Shown in pieces: positions 2,285 to 11,862 of a DNA stretch of 22,073 nucleotides; the first letter of the stretch is position 1, and every line of letters starts with the position of its first letter. The DNA comes from a virus. The stretch lies in the IMG/VR virus record IMGVR_UViG_3300042459_000265, positions 1 to 22,073 of that record. One strand, 5' to 3'. Made by a program: the position numbers and the translations under genes. The notes beneath the pieces were generated by a model that saw nothing but the letters and a program-made list of their open reading frames with translations, had not been told where the DNA came from and did no database searches.

Positions 2285-2870
2285 CAAAGATGTTTGGCAT
2301 ACATTAGATGCTGACGATCTTTGGATTTATGATAAGCTAATCCTAGCCAAGAAACTTGGATATAAAGCCGCGCCCGCAGGTGTTCCAGTTGATAGCCCTA
2401 ATTGGTACATTGTTCGCCCTATAACCAATCTCCGCATGATGAGTCGTGGTGCAGCAAAGCAATGGCTAACGCCCAATGATGTTAACGCAATTCCAGATGG
2501 TTATTTTTGGTGTGAGTTTTTCACTGGTGACCATATCTCAGTAGACTATCATTATGGTCAACAACACATTTGTGTACAAGGGTTTAGAAACAGTGATAGG
2601 CTTGATAGATTTTGCAGATGGACTAAAATAGATAAGCACATTCCAATACCACTTCCGCTAAAGCACTTATCAGAAAAATACGAATGGATCAATGTAGAGT
2701 ATGTTGGTGGTAATCCGATTGAAGTCCATGCAAGGTACAATGACGACTTCACCAACCATTCATGCAACACTATAATACCCGTTTGGAAAAACGAATCCAT
2801 TGAGCAACCACCAGGTTCTTCATGGTACGAATCGCCCTCAGCAGAACGATTAGGATTTTGGATATACTAA
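2265..2870 (+). CDS. Conserved phage hypothetical protein (DADDLWIYDKL family), 201 aa
   Basis: The longest gene of the left arm. Motifs WHTLDADDLWIYDKLILAKK, YIVRPITNLRMMSRGAA, GYFWCEFFTGDHISVDY and GGNPIEVHARYNDDF belong, from memory, to a widespread uncharacterised phage family; the order of conserved Arg, Glu and Asn residues is loosely reminiscent of ATP-grasp proteins, which I cannot confirm. The only in-frame start before the conserved region is TTG 2265, preceded at about 8 nt by AGG; no ATG is available. It is the last gene of the first operon; promoter cassette 1 follows. Confidence 0.8.
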   Translation: MTFLIDDKDVWHTLDADDLWIYDKLILAKKLGYKAAPAGVPVDSPNWYIVRPITNLRMMSRGAAKQWLTPNDVNAIPDGYFWCEFFTGDHISVDYHYGQQHICVQGFRNSDRLDRFCRWTKIDKHIPIPLPLKHLSEKYEWINVEYVGGNPIEVHARYNDDFTNHSCNTIIPVWKNESIEQPPGSSWYESPSAERLGFWIY

Positions 2871-2912
2871 AAGTAATACTTTAGTCTTACACCAAGTTTA
2901 GTCAGGTATTGG

Positions 2913-2940
2913 TTGACACTTACCGGAAACCTGGTATAAT
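2913..2940 (+). promoter_or_regulatory. Early promoter cassette 1
   Basis: TTGACA (2913-2918), 16-nt spacer, TATAAT (2935-2940), with TGG before the -10 (extended -10). The spacer has ACCGG-aaac-CTGGT, an imperfect palindrome ending on the first base of the -10. The upstream part is less conserved than in the other cassettes, but the downstream AGAGCCATAGACAG is shared with cassette 3. It drives 2970 onward. Confidence 0.9.
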
Positions 2941-2969
2941 AGAGCCATAGACAGTAAGAAAGACAAATC

Positions 2970-3158
2970 ATGGCCTTCGAATCAAAAATCCTCTCCCTTG
3001 TTGCTAAAGTCACCACCGATGCTGAATTCACCAGCGGTACTCTTTTCGTGACATGCACTCCACGTGAGGCCGCTAAAATCCAAACGATTTTGGAAAATCC
3101 CGCTTACGGCGTGATTGTCTCTCCTGTTGGTGATCAATTTGCTTTTGACTTTGTTTGA
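2970..3158 (+). CDS. Small hypothetical protein, 62 aa
   Basis: First gene after promoter cassette 1, with a leader of about 23 nt containing AAGAAAGA. The product MAFESKILSLVAKVTTDAEF, then TLFVTCTPREAAKIQTILEN and a VIVSPVGDQFAFDFV end, looks like a compact alpha/beta domain. No family recognised. Confidence 0.75.
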   Translation: MAFESKILSLVAKVTTDAEFTSGTLFVTCTPREAAKIQTILENPAYGVIVSPVGDQFAFDFV

Positions 3159-3169
3159 TTGGAGTTTTT

Positions 3170-3253
3170 ATGTTTGAATTTTTAGTCGTTGTTTGTGTTG
3201 TGTTGGTCTTGGTTGGTGGCACTGTTAGTGGCTCCGTTGAGACCTTAGGTTAA
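3170..3253 (+). CDS. Single-span membrane peptide, 27 aa
   Basis: GGAG lies 5 nt before ATG 3170. The peptide is MFEFLVVVCVVLVLVGG followed by a short Ser/Thr tail: one transmembrane helix over residues 3-17. It sits between two supported genes with no overlap. Very short peptides like this are easy to over-call; the good ribosome-binding site is the main support. Confidence 0.5.
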   Translation: MFEFLVVVCVVLVLVGGTVSGSVETLG

Positions 3254-3272
3254 TCCTTTCATTGGAGTTATC

Positions 3273-3569
3273 ATGAAAATCGCTCGGACTATTCTTGATC
3301 AAATTGGATATCTAGACCCATGGGCTATGTATGCTTGGGGTGCAGTAGACCTCACTGATATGGGTGATGGCTTACAATTTAAAACAACTGGTATGACACC
3401 ATTCAAAGGTTTGGTGTATATCCAATACAAGCCTTGCCCTGACCTGTATAACATCACATTTATGCAAGTCCGTAAGGTCAAAGGCGTTCCTACAGTGAAA
3501 GTCCGCAAGATAGTGGTGGACGTATATGCTGAGGACTTGATTCGTACCATTGACGAATTCGTAGGATGA
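3273..3569 (+). CDS. Conserved phage hypothetical protein (TILDQIG...MYAWGA), 98 aa
   Basis: GGAG precedes ATG 3273 by 7 nt. The N-terminus [11 protein letters not shown] and the following aromatic segment match the layout of a common phage protein that usually reads TILxQLGG...MTGA; the middle is beta-rich and the end is [14 protein letters not shown]. Function unknown. The last 36 bases plus one overlap the next gene and are duplicated almost exactly at 4232-4268 (see repeat). Confidence 0.8.
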
Positions 3570-3772
3570 TCCAAATGAAATTCAAACTAGGTGACACCGT
3601 TAGAAAAGTGTCTGGCTCACAGTGGCATGGCACCATTGTGGGAACTTATAGCACCAAACTTACACCAGAAGGCTATGCTGTGGAAAGTTTCACAGAGGTG
3701 GGTTCAGTCCAGATTTATCCAGCTAAGGCGTTGGAACTATTCACACCCAATAAAAAGAGTACTTCCGACTGA
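3566..3772 (+). CDS. dfrB-like: Type II dihydrofolate reductase homologue (DfrB/R67-like)
   Basis: 68 residues. [20 protein letters not shown], then [12 protein letters not shown] and [13 protein letters not shown] align residue by residue with plasmid R67 DHFR ([36 protein letters not shown]). R67 is an SH3-like barrel that forms a homotetramer with one central active pore. The R67 catalytic residues Lys32, Ser65, Val66, Gln67, Ile68 and Tyr69 correspond to Lys14, Ser47, Val48, Gln49, Ile50 and Tyr51, all kept. R67 Trp45 is Thr and His62 is Glu. The disordered R67 N-terminus is absent. Expected reaction: NADPH-dependent reduction of dihydrofolate. The start overlaps the previous stop (ATGA); ATG 3575 is an alternative. 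The stop lies within promoter cassette 2. Confidence 0.85.
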
Positions 3773-3773
3773 C

Positions 3774-3801
3774 TTGACAATTACCTATAACCTGGTATAA
3801 T
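3774..3801 (+). promoter_or_regulatory. Early promoter cassette 2
   Basis: TTGACA (3774-3779), 16 nt, TATAAT (3796-3801), extended -10 TGG. The spacer reads ATTACCTATAACCTGG, where the palindrome is reduced to ACC...GGT. It is preceded by GAGTACTTCCGACTGAC, which encodes the last residues and stop of the DfrB-like gene. It drives 3835. Confidence 0.92.
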
Positions 3802-3834
3802 AGAGACTTAGATAGAAAGAAACAGGAGTTGGAA

Positions 3835-4212
3835 ATGGCACGTGAAACAGTAGCACAACGTAATGCACGATACGCCCAAGAGCGTGAAACATACCTCGCA
3901 AAGCAAGTGGATGAATATCCACAGCGCCTCATGCTTGCTCTGGCACGTGCTACAAAAGCATACTTTGAACTCACTGTAAGTAACAACAACAAGTTCCAAC
4001 TTACTAACCGTAACGACCGTTATGATTATTTCTCTTTGGCTTACGCACATTCTCCCGATAGCCAAGAACAATTAGAATCGTTGGAATATGATCTGGATCG
4101 CCATGAAGCGGAACTTGCTGAACGTAAGCGCCTGGCCGAAGTAAAGGCAGAGGCATTGCGTAAGGTCAATGAATTGTTGACTGCGGAAGAGCGTGAATTG
4201 TTGAACTTGTAA
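3835..4212 (+). CDS. Charged, probably coiled-coil protein, 125 aa
   Basis: AGGAG (3824-3828) is 6 nt before ATG 3835, so the TTG six bases earlier is not needed. The N-terminal half is rich in Arg and Ala (ARETVAQRNARYAQERETYL); residues 82-125 form a heptad-like helix (SLEYDLDRHEAELAERKR; AEALRKVNELLTAEE), suggesting a coiled coil and self-association. No family recognised. It is the first gene behind cassette 2. Confidence 0.8.
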   Translation: MARETVAQRNARYAQERETYLAKQVDEYPQRLMLALARATKAYFELTVSNNNKFQLTNRNDRYDYFSLAYAHSPDSQEQLESLEYDLDRHEAELAERKRLAEVKAEALRKVNELLTAEERELLNL

Positions 4213-4216
4213 ATAC

Positions 4217-4268
4217 TGAGTACTTTCCACTGACTTGATCCGTACCATTGACGAATTCGTAGGATGAT
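4217..4268 (+). other. Chimeric junction: half promoter cassette fused to a duplicated gene end
   Basis: Bases 4217-4238 (TGAGTACTTTCCACTGACTTGA) match the upstream half of the promoter cassettes up to TTGA of the -35. At that point the sequence switches to the 3534-3570 repeat instead of continuing with CAATTACC and the -10. The shared heptamer GACTTGA is the likely crossover point. No TATAAT follows, so the gene at 4272 probably depends on readthrough from cassette 2. Confidence 0.8.
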
Positions 4269-4271
4269 ATT

Positions 4272-4475
4272 ATGAAACTGAATAAATTTATTGAACAATT
4301 GCAAAAACTCCAAACCGAGGGTCATGGCGATAAGGAAGTTTTCTATCGGCACGGCGCCTCAGGTGATTGTGGTCCATTGTCCTCAGCATTCATTACCGAT
4401 GAAGTAGATGGTGATTGTGGTCCATTTGACCTAGACGAAGGTGAAGAGTATGTTTCCATCTATGCAGGAAATTGA
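4272..4475 (+). CDS. Small conserved phage protein (MKLNKFIEQLQKL), 67 aa
   Basis: The start KLNKFIEQLQKLQTEGHGDK followed by EVFYRH and an acidic end is the pattern of a common phage family (usually ELIxxLQxL...GDxEV). A shorter relative may be the gene at 8508, and 16410-16643 shares the MKLIDLIHQLEDL start. It contains a 17-bp in-frame internal repeat (GGTGATTGTGGTCCATT at 4362 and 4410), giving GDCGP twice. AGGA about 8 nt upstream comes from the duplicated segment. Its TGA stop is part of promoter cassette 3. Function unknown. Confidence 0.8.
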   Translation: MKLNKFIEQLQKLQTEGHGDKEVFYRHGASGDCGPLSSAFITDEVDGDCGPFDLDEGEEYVSIYAGN

Positions 4476-4490
4476 GTACTTTTCACTGAC

Positions 4491-4518
4491 TTGACAATTA
4501 CCTATAACCTGGTATAAT
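4491..4518 (+). promoter_or_regulatory. Early promoter cassette 3
   Basis: TTGACA (4491-4496), 16 nt, TATAAT (4513-4518), extended -10. Upstream TGAGTACTTTTCACTGAC supplies the stop codon of the previous gene. The spacer is identical to cassette 2, and the downstream AGAGCCATAGACAG matches cassette 1. It drives 4544-4971. Confidence 0.93.
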
Positions 4519-4543
4519 AGAGCCATAGACAGAAAGATTCCAA

Positions 4544-4768
4544 ATGACCAAACAATTCGTCCAAGTCAGTGCCCACAAAGATAGCAATAACTTTGCTCAC
4601 TGGAGCAATCTGAGTATCATGGCAAGCATGGGTCTGACTGCTGAACAGGCCCTGCGCCGCTTGCAAGCCATGGCTGATAACTACGCACTGAACGGATATA
4701 CCATTGAGTGGATCCGTGAGGATTTTGATGCCGCTTACGAAGAAATGTACGGAGACCTGTTTGTATGA
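4544..4768 (+). CDS. Small hypothetical protein, 74 aa
   Basis: First gene behind cassette 3, with GAAAGA about 7 nt upstream of the ATG, as in the other cassette leaders. The product (MTKQFVQVSAHKDSNNFAHW; SMGLTAEQALRRLQAMADNY; EDFDAAYEEMYGDLFV) looks mainly helical and acidic at the end. No family recognised. Overlaps the next gene as ATGA. Confidence 0.78.
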   Translation: MTKQFVQVSAHKDSNNFAHWSNLSIMASMGLTAEQALRRLQAMADNYALNGYTIEWIREDFDAAYEEMYGDLFV

Positions 4769-4971
4769 CAAAAGTATACACTGTAGAGTTCCATGACAAG
4801 ACTATGGACTTCCGTCTGGTGCGATGGACAACCATTAGCCCAGGTATTCGCTCAGGTGAAGACCTGAAACGGTTTGATTCCGAGGACGAAGCTATGAAAG
4901 TGGCGGACTGGATGAACGTGGGCGAAGAGTGGGACCTGTACCACCACCAATTGTGTGAATTTGATAATTGA
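4765..4971 (+). CDS. Small hypothetical protein, 68 aa
   Basis: Begins MTKVYTVEFHDKTMDFRLV, a beta-hairpin-like start, followed by a helix around FDSEDEAMKVADWMNVGEEW. The start overlaps the previous stop (ATGA); the TGA stop is the first three bases of the TGAGTACTTTT of cassette 4. No family recognised. Confidence 0.75.
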   Translation: MTKVYTVEFHDKTMDFRLVRWTTISPGIRSGEDLKRFDSEDEAMKVADWMNVGEEWDLYHHQLCEFDN

Positions 4972-4986
4972 GTACTTTTACTGTAC

Positions 4987-5014
4987 TTGACAATTACCAG
5001 AAACCTGGTATAAT
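4987..5014 (+). promoter_or_regulatory. Early promoter cassette 4
   Basis: TTGACA (4987-4992), 16 nt, TATAAT (5009-5014). The spacer contains a perfect palindrome ACCAG-aaac-CTGGT (4996-5009), whose last T is the first base of the -10. Predicted leader about 21 nt ending GAAAGACACCAATG. It drives 5042 onward. Confidence 0.93.
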
Positions 5015-5041
5015 AGAACCATACCAGATAGAAAGACACCA

Positions 5042-5197
5042 ATGAGAACTTACCAAGCATTCTACAAAAACCGCGTTATCACCGTAACTGCATCCACCTC
5101 ATATGAGGCGCAGTTGAAAGCCGCAGCCGTGTTCAAGGCACGTAAGTCCTATGATGTGGCTATCGTGTTGGCTGATACACCCGTTTTTATTGATTGA
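5042..5197 (+). CDS. Small conserved phage protein (YQAFYKNRVITV), 51 aa
   Basis: Starts at the ATG ending the cassette 4 leader. MRTYQAFYKNRVITVTAS, then SYEAQLKAAAVFKARKSYDV and AIVLAD follow the layout of a small phage family (short beta hairpin, helix, beta strand) that I have seen without an assigned function. No catalytic residues. GGAAAC follows the stop and leads to the next start. Confidence 0.75.
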   Translation: MRTYQAFYKNRVITVTASTSYEAQLKAAAVFKARKSYDVAIVLADTPVFID

Positions 5198-5209
5198 AGG
5201 AAACCTACC

Positions 5210-5590
5210 ATGAATGACAAAGAAGCATTGAAGCTGGCGCTGGAGGCGTTGGAGTGGAACATGGACTATCTACCATCGCAAGGTCACGGCACATCAATGG
5301 CGAGTAAAGCCATCACCGCCATCAAGCAAGCCCTTGAAGCACCTGTGCAGAAACGCCCACCCAACTGTGGAACGGGCTATTGTTCGTGCGTTGAATGCGT
5401 GATGGAACCCGCAGCACAGCCAGCACAGCAAGAGCCGATTAACGTAGCGCAAGCCTATGCGATGGCTCAGGTCTGCTTAGATTTGCATGATGCCCTCGGC
5501 TGCAAGTGGGGTGACAACCCGTATCTTGCAATAGACCGACTCAAAACCGCAGCACCTGTGCAGGAGCCTGTGGCGTGGCGTGGCGTGTGA
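5210..5590 (+). CDS. Ala/Gln-rich phage protein (MNDKEALKLALEALE), frameshifted near its end
   Basis: 126 residues as read: helical start NDKEALKLALEALEWNMDY, AITAIKQALEAPVQKRP, a Cys-rich motif CGTGYCSCVECVMEP (possible metal site), then QAYAMAQVCLDLHDALG and EPVAWRGV. Related phage proteins normally continue after EPVAWR and end near LYTTPPQ. Exactly that continuation is present in another frame at 5590-5721 (RFHYGTDGMAKRIGDWKLYG ... EPLYTTPPQNHV). Three TGGCG units at 5571-5585 cause the shift; two would restore one 168-residue reading frame. It is therefore a recent mutant, a phase-variable gene or a sequencing error. Confidence 0.8.
   Translation: MNDKEALKLALEALEWNMDYLPSQGHGTSMASKAITAIKQALEAPVQKRPPNCGTGYCSCVECVMEPAAQPAQQEPINVAQAYAMAQVCLDLHDALGCKWGDNPYLAIDRLKTAAPVQEPVAWRGV
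5571..5585 (+). repeat. TGGCG pentanucleotide repeat, three units, at the frameshift
   Basis: TGGCGTGGCGTGGCG is followed by TGTGA, whose TGA stops the gene at 5210. Removing one unit gives GAG CCT GTG GCG TGG CGT GTG AGA TTC, joining EPVAWR to VRFHYGTDG without a stop. Short tandem repeats of this kind change length by slipped-strand mispairing. Confidence 0.8.
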
Positions 5591-5721
5591 GATTCCACTA
5601 CGGCACGGATGGTATGGCTAAACGAATTGGTGATTGGAAACTTTATGGATATTCACCGACTCCCGAGGAAGACAAAGAAATCGAACCCCTCTACACCACC
5701 CCACCCCAGAACCATGTTTGA
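5590..5721 (+). pseudogene. Displaced C-terminal part of the gene at 5210
   Basis: Open in frame 1 for 43 residues to TGA 5719-5721: RFHYGTDGMAKRIGDWKLYG, YSPTPEEDKEIEPLYTTPPQ, NHV. It has no start codon or ribosome-binding site of its own and reads as the natural end of the upstream gene. Its last bases overlap the ATG of the membrane peptide at 5714. Confidence 0.7.
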
Positions 5722-5830
5722 CTTTATACTAGCCTTGATACAGGCCATTTTGATTTTCCTGATCCTATCTTTATGGGTGATGTTAGCCGTCATACCTGGA
5801 ATCTACCACCTAGTGAAATTAGTACTTTAG
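5714..5830 (+). CDS. Single-span membrane peptide, 38 aa
   Basis: MFDFILALIQAILIFLILSL, then WVMLAVIPGIYHLVKLVL: a long hydrophobic segment over residues 4-29 with a short basic tail. The ATG overlaps the end of the intact form of the upstream gene, suggesting coupling. The TAG stop lies inside the TAGTACTTTAG start of promoter cassette 5, so the cassette again ends the gene. A longer reading from 5609 is open but would run through the displaced end of the previous gene. Confidence 0.6.
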   Translation: MFDFILALIQAILIFLILSLWVMLAVIPGIYHLVKLVL

Positions 5831-5836
5831 TCTGAC

Positions 5837-5864
5837 TTGACAATTACCAGAAACCTGGTATAAT
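5837..5864 (+). promoter_or_regulatory. Early promoter cassette 5
   Basis: TTGACA (5837-5842), 16 nt, TATAAT (5859-5864); the spacer is identical to cassette 4 with the perfect palindrome ACCAG-aaac-CTGGT. Followed by AGAGCCATACACCAG. It drives 5893-6820. Confidence 0.93.
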
Positions 5865-5892
5865 AGAGCCATACACCAGAGAAGGAAAGAAC

Positions 5893-6129
5893 ATGTACAC
5901 AACAATTTGGTCAGGCCGCAATGTCCGTGCTGCACTGACAGTAAAGGTGCTCCAAGAGTCACCAGCAGCTATCAAATTTGTAGTAGCAGATAATGAAAAA
6001 GCTACCTTTTGGTTGCCAAAGAAAGCATTGAAAATGGTGGATGAATGCTATGACTTAGCATTTTGGTTCACAAAAGGTGAGTACCTGGCCAGTCTGTTCA
6101 ACCGCTATGCTAACCACTATAAGACTTAA
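5893..6129 (+). CDS. Small hypothetical protein, 78 aa
   Basis: AAGGA lies 6 nt before the ATG. The product (MYTTIWSGRNVRAALTVKVL; AIKFVVADNEKATFWLPKKA; FNRYANHYKT) alternates beta strands and a C-terminal helix. KATFWLPKKAL is the pattern of a small phage family (residues stating that a compound prevents or permits an enzyme cannot be seen); no function assigned. Confidence 0.75.
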   Translation: MYTTIWSGRNVRAALTVKVLQESPAAIKFVVADNEKATFWLPKKALKMVDECYDLAFWFTKGEYLASLFNRYANHYKT

Positions 6130-6141
6130 TAGGAGAAAATG

Positions 6142-6282
6142 ATGTTAATGATTAGTTTGATTTTGTATGCCGTCCTTGGCCTAGTGCTGGGTCTTTTGGG
6201 TATCAATGTGATTGAAAAGCCCATTGAATTCATAGCGATTATGGCTCTAGTCGCAATGATTGATTTGAAGGGAAGTATGTGA
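6142..6282 (+). CDS. Small membrane protein, 46 aa
   Basis: AGGAG (6131-6135) is 6 nt before ATG 6142 (another ATG at 6139 is closer). MLMISLILYAVLGLVLGLLG and EFIAIMALVAMIDLKGSM give two hydrophobic segments (about 3-22 and 29-41) around a short charged loop. The TGA stop overlaps the GTG start of the next gene. Function unknown. Confidence 0.65.
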   Translation: MLMISLILYAVLGLVLGLLGINVIEKPIEFIAIMALVAMIDLKGSM

Positions 6283-6491
6283 GTGAACGAATAAAAGAAC
6301 TTGCTGAACAGGCTACTAGAAGCAAATACTGGAATGCCACAACTCAGGTAATGATTGAAGATTTTGATAAAGAAAAGTTCGCCCAGTTGATTGTGGCAGA
6401 ATGTGCCGAGATTGCACTTACTGATGGACAAGCAACTGGTAACTTTGAGGTCTTCAATAAGATTACAAAACATTTCGGAGTTGAAGAATGA
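6279..6491 (+). CDS. ERIKEL/FGVEE-family small protein, member 3
   Basis: 70 residues from GTG 6279, with AAGGGA upstream. SERIKELAEQATRSKYWN at the start, KEKFAQLIVAECAEIAL at about 32-48, and ITKHFGVEE at the end give the full family pattern with the shortest linker. The 3' end CATTTCGGAGTTGAAGAATG is almost base-identical to that of the gene at 8074 and provides GGAG plus the ATG of the next gene. Confidence 0.9.
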   Translation: MSERIKELAEQATRSKYWNATTQVMIEDFDKEKFAQLIVAECAEIALTDGQATGNFEVFNKITKHFGVEE

Positions 6492-7452: not shown

Positions 7453-7602
7453 ATGACCAAGCATTACTTTGTGGTCTATAAGTCCTACCAAAGACCTGGG
7501 CTAGAACACTTTGAGGTTGATGCTGCTAATAAAGCAGAAGCACGGAGAATGTTTCTGGAAGCCAACATCAAGCACGATTACATTATCAAGATTATATTAT
7601 GA
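7453..7602 (+). CDS. Small hypothetical protein, 49 aa
   Basis: ATG 7453 directly follows the previous TGA, with GGAG just before that stop. MTKHYFVVYKSYQRPGLEHF, EVDAANKAEARRMFLEANIK and HDYIIKIIL suggest a beta-alpha-beta unit; the pattern F-V-A-NKAEAR-MF resembles small phage proteins with a repeat-like strand-helix fold. An open frame reaches back to 7384 but would overlap the previous gene. The stop overlaps the next ATG. Confidence 0.7.
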   Translation: MTKHYFVVYKSYQRPGLEHFEVDAANKAEARRMFLEANIKHDYIIKIIL

Positions 7603-7832
7603 ACGAACGAATTAAAGAACTTATGATTGAGGCTTTTCAGAGTCACTACGGTGATCCAGTTACGCCAGTGTCTAGAGAAAAAGCTGTTGAATTAGTCAGT
7701 GGCTGGGGAGAAAAGTTCGCCCAATTGATCGCCGAAGATTGTGCTAAGATGTTGGACGAAGATTCATACATCATGCCCGAACTCGGTGGTTACGCTCACG
7801 ACATTCGTACACGCTATGGAGTCCAAGAATGA
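7599..7832 (+). CDS. ERIKEL/FGVEE-family small protein, member 4
   Basis: 77 residues: NERIKELMIEAFQSHYGD, then GEKFAQLIAEDCAKMLDE (about 37-54) and RTRYGVQE. The opening ATGAACGAACGAATTAAAGA is base-identical to that of the gene at 1064. It is the most diverged at its end (YGVQE), yet still keeps GGAG 7 nt before the ATG of the next gene. Confidence 0.9.
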   Translation: MNERIKELMIEAFQSHYGDPVTPVSREKAVELVSGWGEKFAQLIAEDCAKMLDEDSYIMPELGGYAHDIRTRYGVQE

Positions 7833-8077
7833 AAACAATTTACAAATACACAGTAACCGGTCGCTCCGACACAGAAATGCCGGTTGGTGCCCGTATACTC
7901 CATTGCAATATGCAGGGAAAAGATTTCTGTATGTGGGCACTGGTAGACACTGATGCTCAAATAGAACCTCGAACCTTTGAGGTTGTAGGGACTGGATGGG
8001 AACTGGACGAGAATATGTTCTACATTGGGACCTGTCTCGAGGGGTCATTTGTTTGGCATATTATGGAGATTGTATGA
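7829..8077 (+). CDS. DUF7352-like phage protein, 82 aa
   Basis: MKTIYKYTVTGRSDTEMPVG, ARILHCNMQGKDFCMWALVD, EPRTFEVVGTGWELDE, YIGTCLEGSFVWHIMEIV. The order IYKY - MP-GA-IL - WALVD - R-F-V-GTG - YIGT - FVWH-ME is the pattern of the small phage/bacterial family I know as DUF7352; the match is from memory. Probably an all-beta domain; function unknown. The ATG overlaps member 4 of the ERIKEL family, and the stop overlaps member 5. Confidence 0.8.
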   Translation: MKTIYKYTVTGRSDTEMPVGARILHCNMQGKDFCMWALVDTDAQIEPRTFEVVGTGWELDENMFYIGTCLEGSFVWHIMEIV

Positions 8078-8301
8078 ACGAACGAATTGAAGAACTAATG
8101 TTTGAGGCTGGTAGGTATGCTGATAAAAATACCGGAAGTTCAGACCGAAGTGGGATGTGGGTGTATCAATATAGTGAAAAGTTCGCCGAGTTGATTGTGA
8201 AAAAATGTATGGAACTTACCAAACGGTGTTCCACTGGTAAAGGCATACACGATTTATTTGCCGATGAAATCATTAAAGAACATTTCGGAGTTGAAGAATG
8301 A
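8074..8301 (+). CDS. ERIKEL/FGVEE-family small protein, member 5
   Basis: 75 residues from ATG 8074 (overlapping the previous stop): NERIEELMFEAGRYADKN, SEKFAELIVKKCMELTKR (about 37-54), IIKEHFGVEE. The 3' end CATTTCGGAGTTGAAGAATG matches member 3 and carries the next gene's ATG. Members 4 and 5 are separated only by the DUF7352-like gene, suggesting duplication of a pair or insertion of that gene. Confidence 0.9.
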   Translation: MNERIEELMFEAGRYADKNTGSSDRSGMWVYQYSEKFAELIVKKCMELTKRCSTGKGIHDLFADEIIKEHFGVEE

Positions 8302-11394: not shown

Positions 11395-11702
11395 TTGTTG
11401 TGGTGCTCCAGAATAATTTGCTTTACTTTGTTCATTGAAAAGACTGTTGCATTAGATTCAAATGAATAACTGGATCGGATGATTCTATAGATTTCGGATG
11501 CGTCTTCTCTATTATACCAGGTGCCGATGAATGAGCCATGGATTTCTTTTAGGCCATGGAGCATACATGGATCAGTTACGTACCGATATTGATATTGCTC
11601 CCATTTTTCCGGATGATTTTTTGCGATATCACGGACATAATCTCCATATTGCCGCCAACACCCGGCTATGATCCAATATTGTGTTTTATTAATTCTAGGC
11701 AC
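11391..11702 (-). CDS. FIGTWYNRED paralogue B, 103 aa
   Basis: GTG start at 11702 overlaps the stop of its upstream paralogue and has AGGAG 6 nt before it. The core QYWIIAGCWRQYGDYVRDIA, HPEKWEQYQYRYV, IHGSFIGTWYNREDA and IYRIIRSS aligns along its length with the protein at 11695-12075. It lacks the paralogue's N-terminal 25 residues and has a different C-terminus. It looks like one alpha/beta domain of unknown function. An extended -10-like TGGTATAAT is embedded in the codons for GTWYN. Confidence 0.8.
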   Translation of the reverse strand: MPRINKTQYWIIAGCWRQYGDYVRDIAKNHPEKWEQYQYRYVTDPCMLHGLKEIHGSFIGTWYNREDASEIYRIIRSSYSFESNATVFSMNKVKQIILEHHNK

Positions 11703-11862
11703 CTACTGCTCCTACTGGTTTACCATATCGGTCTAGGACCTTTCTTGCGGTGAATAGTCCTGGATTGTATGTGTTTTCGGCGTACCCGATGTGGCTTGCA
11801 CTTATGATTCCATAGATTATTCTTGCGTCTTCTCTATTATACCAGGTGCCGATGAATGAGCC
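11500..11862. repeat. 38-bp identical segment in tandem paralogues (11500-11537, 11825-11862)
   Basis: Both paralogues share an unbroken 38-bp identity over GSFIGTWYNREDA, while the flanks have diverged clearly, including at silent sites. On the minus strand it contains CCTGGTATAATAGAG, 15 bases identical to the core of the early promoter cassettes. Either gene conversion or constraint on the DNA itself could explain it. Confidence 0.85.

Follow-up and report, generated by a model that had tools for sequence, protein, structure and literature searches.

Positions 4217 to 4268 of the window, by which we mean the whole 22,073-base stretch analyzed here and the whole of one virus record from an uncultured phage, probably represent the right-hand joint of a gene module that was inserted by a short-homology crossover. 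At this joint, the upstream half of a promoter cassette lacking a -10 box (positions 4217 to 4238, + strand; 22 nt, TGAGTACTTTCCACTGACTTGA), as delimited by a repeat search and a promoter scan, switches at position 4239 to the 3' end of gene 3273. The gene-end sequence, GACTTGATCCGTACCATTGACGAATTCGTAGGATGAT (positions 4232 to 4268, + strand), is the second of two copies in the window. The first copy lies in place at the end of gene 3273 (positions 3534 to 3570, + strand), and the two agree at 36 of 37 bases; the chance expectation of such a 37-bp pair in the window is approximately 1e-12. The cassette half and the gene end share the heptamer GACTTGA (positions 4232 to 4238, + strand), the 7-nt homology that would have held the crossover.

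The join is ordinary phage gene shuffling in a form that can be read cleanly. A filled site, an empty site, and an alternative occupant allow a base-level reading of how an accessory module entered, and the homology is still visible; for most mosaic boundaries, no such boundary sequence is identifiable (PMC3029335). The same comparison also shows a limit, in that it offers no indication that joints favor promoter cassettes over other gene ends.

The joint and the probable inserted module

The half cassette at positions 4217 to 4238 aligns with intact cassettes (families D2 and D5) in the repeat search, and the same 22-mer opens the intact cassette located 3' of gene 4272 in L016 and L017. The initial annotation had described a half cassette that runs into the end of gene 3273 at GACTTGA and has lost its -10 box. 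We confirmed the coordinates of this transition, and a promoter scan of positions 4217 to 4268 found nothing promoter-like and no -10 match. Judged from its sequence, the half-promoter is a dead remnant. The gene-end half (positions 4232 to 4268) contains the AGGA ribosome-binding site of gene 4272, which would explain why it survives.

An assembly chimera is unlikely, as the same joint occurs in two further contigs of the same phage: L108, which is 100% identical to the window over 16.0 kb, and L107, which is 99.985% identical over 13.5 kb. In a DNA scan of IMG/VR, the gene-end motif was found twice in the window phage only and once in each of three other contigs; no contig beyond these five of the lineage was retrieved.

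The inserted module (positions 3571 to 4231, + strand), defined by gap-free flanking blocks relative to L109, comprises 661 bp and holds a DfrB-like gene, a cassette, gene 3835, and the half cassette. The first of these genes (positions 3575 to 3772, + strand), whose stop codon falls inside the next cassette, resembles DfrB/R67-type dihydrofolate reductases: it matches Pfam DHFR_2 (3.6e-22), PDB entries 1vie and 6ny0, and NCBIfam trim_DfrB (1.9e-25, yet under that model's cut-off), and it contains the VQIY motif, with its function being putative. Relatives of this gene were found at 58 IMG/VR loci with varied neighbors, and freshwater phage contigs have been reported to carry DfrB-like genes (PMC7265639). 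The intact cassette of the insert follows (positions 3757 to 3820, core 3774 to 3801, + strand), and then gene 3835 (positions 3835 to 4212, + strand), whose function is unassigned. Its relatives, 77 to 86% identical, lie behind unrelated promoters in other phage contigs; a search of GenBank phages for gene 3835 gave none.

On the left, the insert is flanked by gene 3273 (positions 3273 to 3569, + strand; 98 amino acids), which has no assigned function beyond a weak match to PHROG 9437. On the right lies gene 4272 (positions 4272 to 4475, + strand), likewise of unassigned function. Immediately 3' of gene 4272 is an intact cassette (positions 4473 to 4537, core 4491 to 4518, + strand), the first TGA of which is the stop codon of that gene.

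Empty site in close relatives and origin of the joint

Scanning IMG/VR for the proteins of genes 3273 and 4272 returned the five contigs of the lineage, three of which are relatives distinct from the window phage. In two of these, L109 (a 75-kb contig) and L110 (a 59-kb contig), which are mutually identical here, gene 3273 is followed directly by gene 4272, and the interval lacks the module. The junction bases GGATGATATTATG join the two genes in both relatives and constitute an exact empty site; the same ATT spacer (GGATGAT-ATT-ATG) is seen at the 3273-4272 empty site of L011 and L012. Two gap-free blocks align the window with L109: positions 2869 to 3570 with L109 positions 4370 to 5071 (90.9% identity) and positions 4232 to 5181 with L109 positions 5035 to 5984 (93.3%). 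These blocks overlap in exactly the 37 bp, and the window form is longer than the L109 form by 698 bp, 37 of which are the repeat. In the third relative, L111, the TGA of gene 3273 is fused to an intact cassette, which is followed by another gene and then by gene 4544; gene 4272 was not found in this contig. The three relatives with gene 3273 form one close group, and the whole window had no DNA-level match among GenBank phages.

L109 itself is mosaic. It is L107-like up to base ~1236 to 1268, just past a cassette, and is then identical to L110 for 12.9 kb, which suggests either a natural recombinant or an assembly chimera. Given its L107-like left side and L110-identical right side, these lineages probably exchange DNA. 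A crossover inside the L109 cassette was considered and rejected, as the switch falls some tens of bases past the -10 box, near the start of the next gene.

The base at position 4240 is C in the second copy and in all relatives and T in the first copy, and GTAGGATGATATTATG is common to L109, L110, and the second copy. Together with the empty site, this base indicates that positions 4232 to 4268 are probably the old 3273-4272 junction. The initial annotation had read this segment as a 30-nt copied gene end, a reading that the original junction replaces as the more likely one. Its proposal that the -35 region recombined through GACTTGA fares better: an overlap of 7 nt occurs in only 0.04 to 0.06% of random joints between a cassette and the 3273-4272 region (0.04% with shuffled donors), GACTTGA has a single occurrence in the recipient 3273-4272 region, and the relatives in which gene 3273 directly precedes gene 4272, suggested at that stage as a check, exist and carry the empty site.

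We propose that two parental phages of one lineage took part. The recipient would have carried gene 3273 directly before gene 4272, as in the relatives, and the donor would have carried gene 3273, the DfrB-like gene, a cassette, gene 3835, and a further intact cassette. A single crossover between GACTTGA of the donor's last cassette and GACTTGA at the end of the recipient's gene 3273 would join the left side of the donor to the right side of the recipient. Its product would be the module, a cassette cut at the -35 region, and two 37-bp gene-end copies, one of which came with the donor while the other stayed with gene 4272; transcription of gene 4272 would then come from the cassette at 3774 by read-through. 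The order predicted for the donor, with an intact cassette after gene 3835, was not present in any of the seven contigs that carry relatives of gene 3835 (the window phage accounts for two of these). A profile search with gene 3273 for an outgroup returned the same five contigs only, so that we infer the direction of insertion, as we do the donor and the read-through of gene 4272.

The direction could in principle be reversed, with the window form being older and L109 and L110 having lost the module by recombination between the 37-bp repeats. Collapse of the repeats would reproduce the empty site base for base, and a 37-bp repeat offers a better substrate for recombination than a 7-bp match. 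Nevertheless, a loss still needs a prior event that placed the end of gene 3273 before gene 4272 behind a cut cassette, an arrangement that presupposes an earlier 3273-4272 junction. Only one of the 37 bases separates the two copies, and at three further bases both depart from L109 in the same way, which suggests, on few bases, that the duplication postdates the split. Neither gene 3835 nor the DfrB-like gene was present in any of the contigs searched of L109, L110, and L111. Loss retains a small but real chance of being correct. The wording of the initial annotation points to template switching within one genome, in which replication of the cassette strayed into the gene 3273 end for 37 nt and then returned before gene 4272. 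Such switching would leave an identical product at the joint through the same GACTTGA homology. It is nonetheless very improbable, since a second switch would have to land by chance at the GGATGAT-ATT-ATG join seen in L011 and L012 and the relatives' base in the second copy would go unexplained.

An insert between 37-bp direct repeats that carries a DfrB-like gene also brings to mind an integron-type dfrB gene cassette (the dfrB family is known from integrons), or else an element that transposed or integrated site-specifically and duplicated 37 bp of its target. The ends of the insert have neither terminal inverted repeats nor a GTTRRRY integron core site, no transposase or integrase is present among its genes, and the repeat begins inside the cut promoter cassette, all of which renders such an origin scarcely credible. 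Finally, the half cassette and gene end could be a selected leader, regulatory or translational, given that the remnant carries the ribosome-binding site of gene 4272 and that unrelated phage contigs have the upstream-half motif ahead of other -10 boxes. However, the combination is found in one phage genotype only, where no -10 match follows, and elsewhere nearly all upstream halves precede a promoter-like -10 box; we assign this reading almost no probability.

Promoter cassettes and their possible part in recombination

The first 10 kb of the window contain many small + strand genes, with the cassette at nine places in the form (T)GAGTACTTT-N-ACTGACTTGACA-N16-TATAAT. Each of these nine intact cassettes agrees with the sigma-70 consensus at 12 of 12 positions, with 16-nt spacing and a TG before the -10 box, and presumably act early. 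No terminator-like site was found on the + strand at the cassettes, leaders downstream of them fold no better than shuffled sequences, and a scan of bacterial and archaeal genomes for the cassette core gave none. At positions 2869 to 2940 and at L109:8762-8861, the cassette is of a longer type in which additional sequence separates TACTTTAGTC from the -35 box; this additional sequence is itself found at two sites in L109 and L110.

Two or three reading frames are often closed by stop codons within the upstream half of the cassette, and genes 3575, 4272, 4765, 5717, 6488, and 8298 all have their stop codons inside cassette sequence. This half, AGTACTTTNNNCTGACTTGAC, is also found in unrelated phage contigs (L112 to L123, e.g., L113:2684 and L117:4185) with different spacers and -10 boxes. 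Its recurrence suggests a conserved element upstream of the -35 box, and both the recurrence and the stop codons fit a functional upstream element. As a long shot, the AGTACTTTNNNCTGACTTGAC half could be an evolved joining adapter: it supplies stop codons, ends at the -35 box where cassettes diverge, and recurs before unrelated spacers, features from which a link to recombination might be read. If so, joins within the upstream half would rarely harm neighboring genes, and the shuffling of promoter-borne genes could be made safe.

Several breakpoints do coincide with cassette edges. In L111, these are the fusion of gene 3273 to a cassette and a cassette directly after the gene 7287 homologue; others are a gene gained before the 2913 cassette and gene loss or gain between cassettes matching 6836. 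We compared broken adjacencies among 34 gene pairs, 8 with a cassette and 26 without. No excess breakage was detected at cassettes, with conserved adjacencies numbering 3 of 8 versus 3 of 26 for L109 (P = 0.13) and 2 of 8 versus 4 of 26 for L111 (P = 0.61). The initial annotation's general claim that these cassettes take part in recombination is thus not supported, as gene pairs with no cassette between them were separated just as often; the data show the involvement of a cassette in the present joint but not that cassettes attract joints.

No other gene-end duplication of the same type was found in the window. The repeats outside cassettes amount to one repeated gene family and one tandem pair. 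The family encodes small proteins of the form MNERIKEL...EKFAELIV...HFGVEE (positions 1064 to 1342, 6279 to 6491, 7599 to 7832, and 8074 to 8301), in diverged copies that are also present in relatives. The pair (positions 11479 to 11537 and 11804 to 11862) consists of 59 bp at 90% identity in two neighboring minus-strand genes and is a probable tandem duplicate.

Comparison with known systems

The promoter early stem-loops (PeSL) of T4-type phages (Arbiol et al. 2010 and Comeau et al. 2014, as cited in PMC4503421 and PMC3950731) are, in those accounts, similarly repeated early-promoter cassettes between small variable genes, with a content that differs among close relatives. Unlike PeSL as portrayed there, the window cassettes have no stem-loop or terminator. 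As for a concentration of joints at the cassettes, several breakpoints fall at their edges, with no excess over other gene boundaries. Lacking the stem-loop, they are not classed as PeSL, although the shuffling works like that proposed for PeSL. With regard to a T4-type affiliation, the best matches of the primase are to large cyanophages at 38 to 41%.

By anatomy, the insert is a moron-like insertion. As in phage morons (PMC1524935, PMC3029335), extra DNA with its own promoter (positions 3774 to 3801) lies between genes that are adjacent in a relative; unlike morons, the insert has no terminator of its own on the + strand within positions 3571 to 4231, and its G+C content (0.437) is like that of its flanks (0.430 and 0.450). 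Recombination at conserved intergenic signals, termed semilegitimate, is already described (PMC3029335, PMC4177764), and the joint resembles it in falling at a short conserved regulatory signal with genes left intact. It differs in that the 7-nt homology pairs a promoter with the inside of a gene 3' end rather than two boundary signals. Short repeated signals before many small genes are also a feature of the start-associated sequences of cluster K mycobacteriophages (PMC3203893); unlike the window cassettes, which are sigma-70 promoters, these consist of 13-bp motifs located at gene starts.
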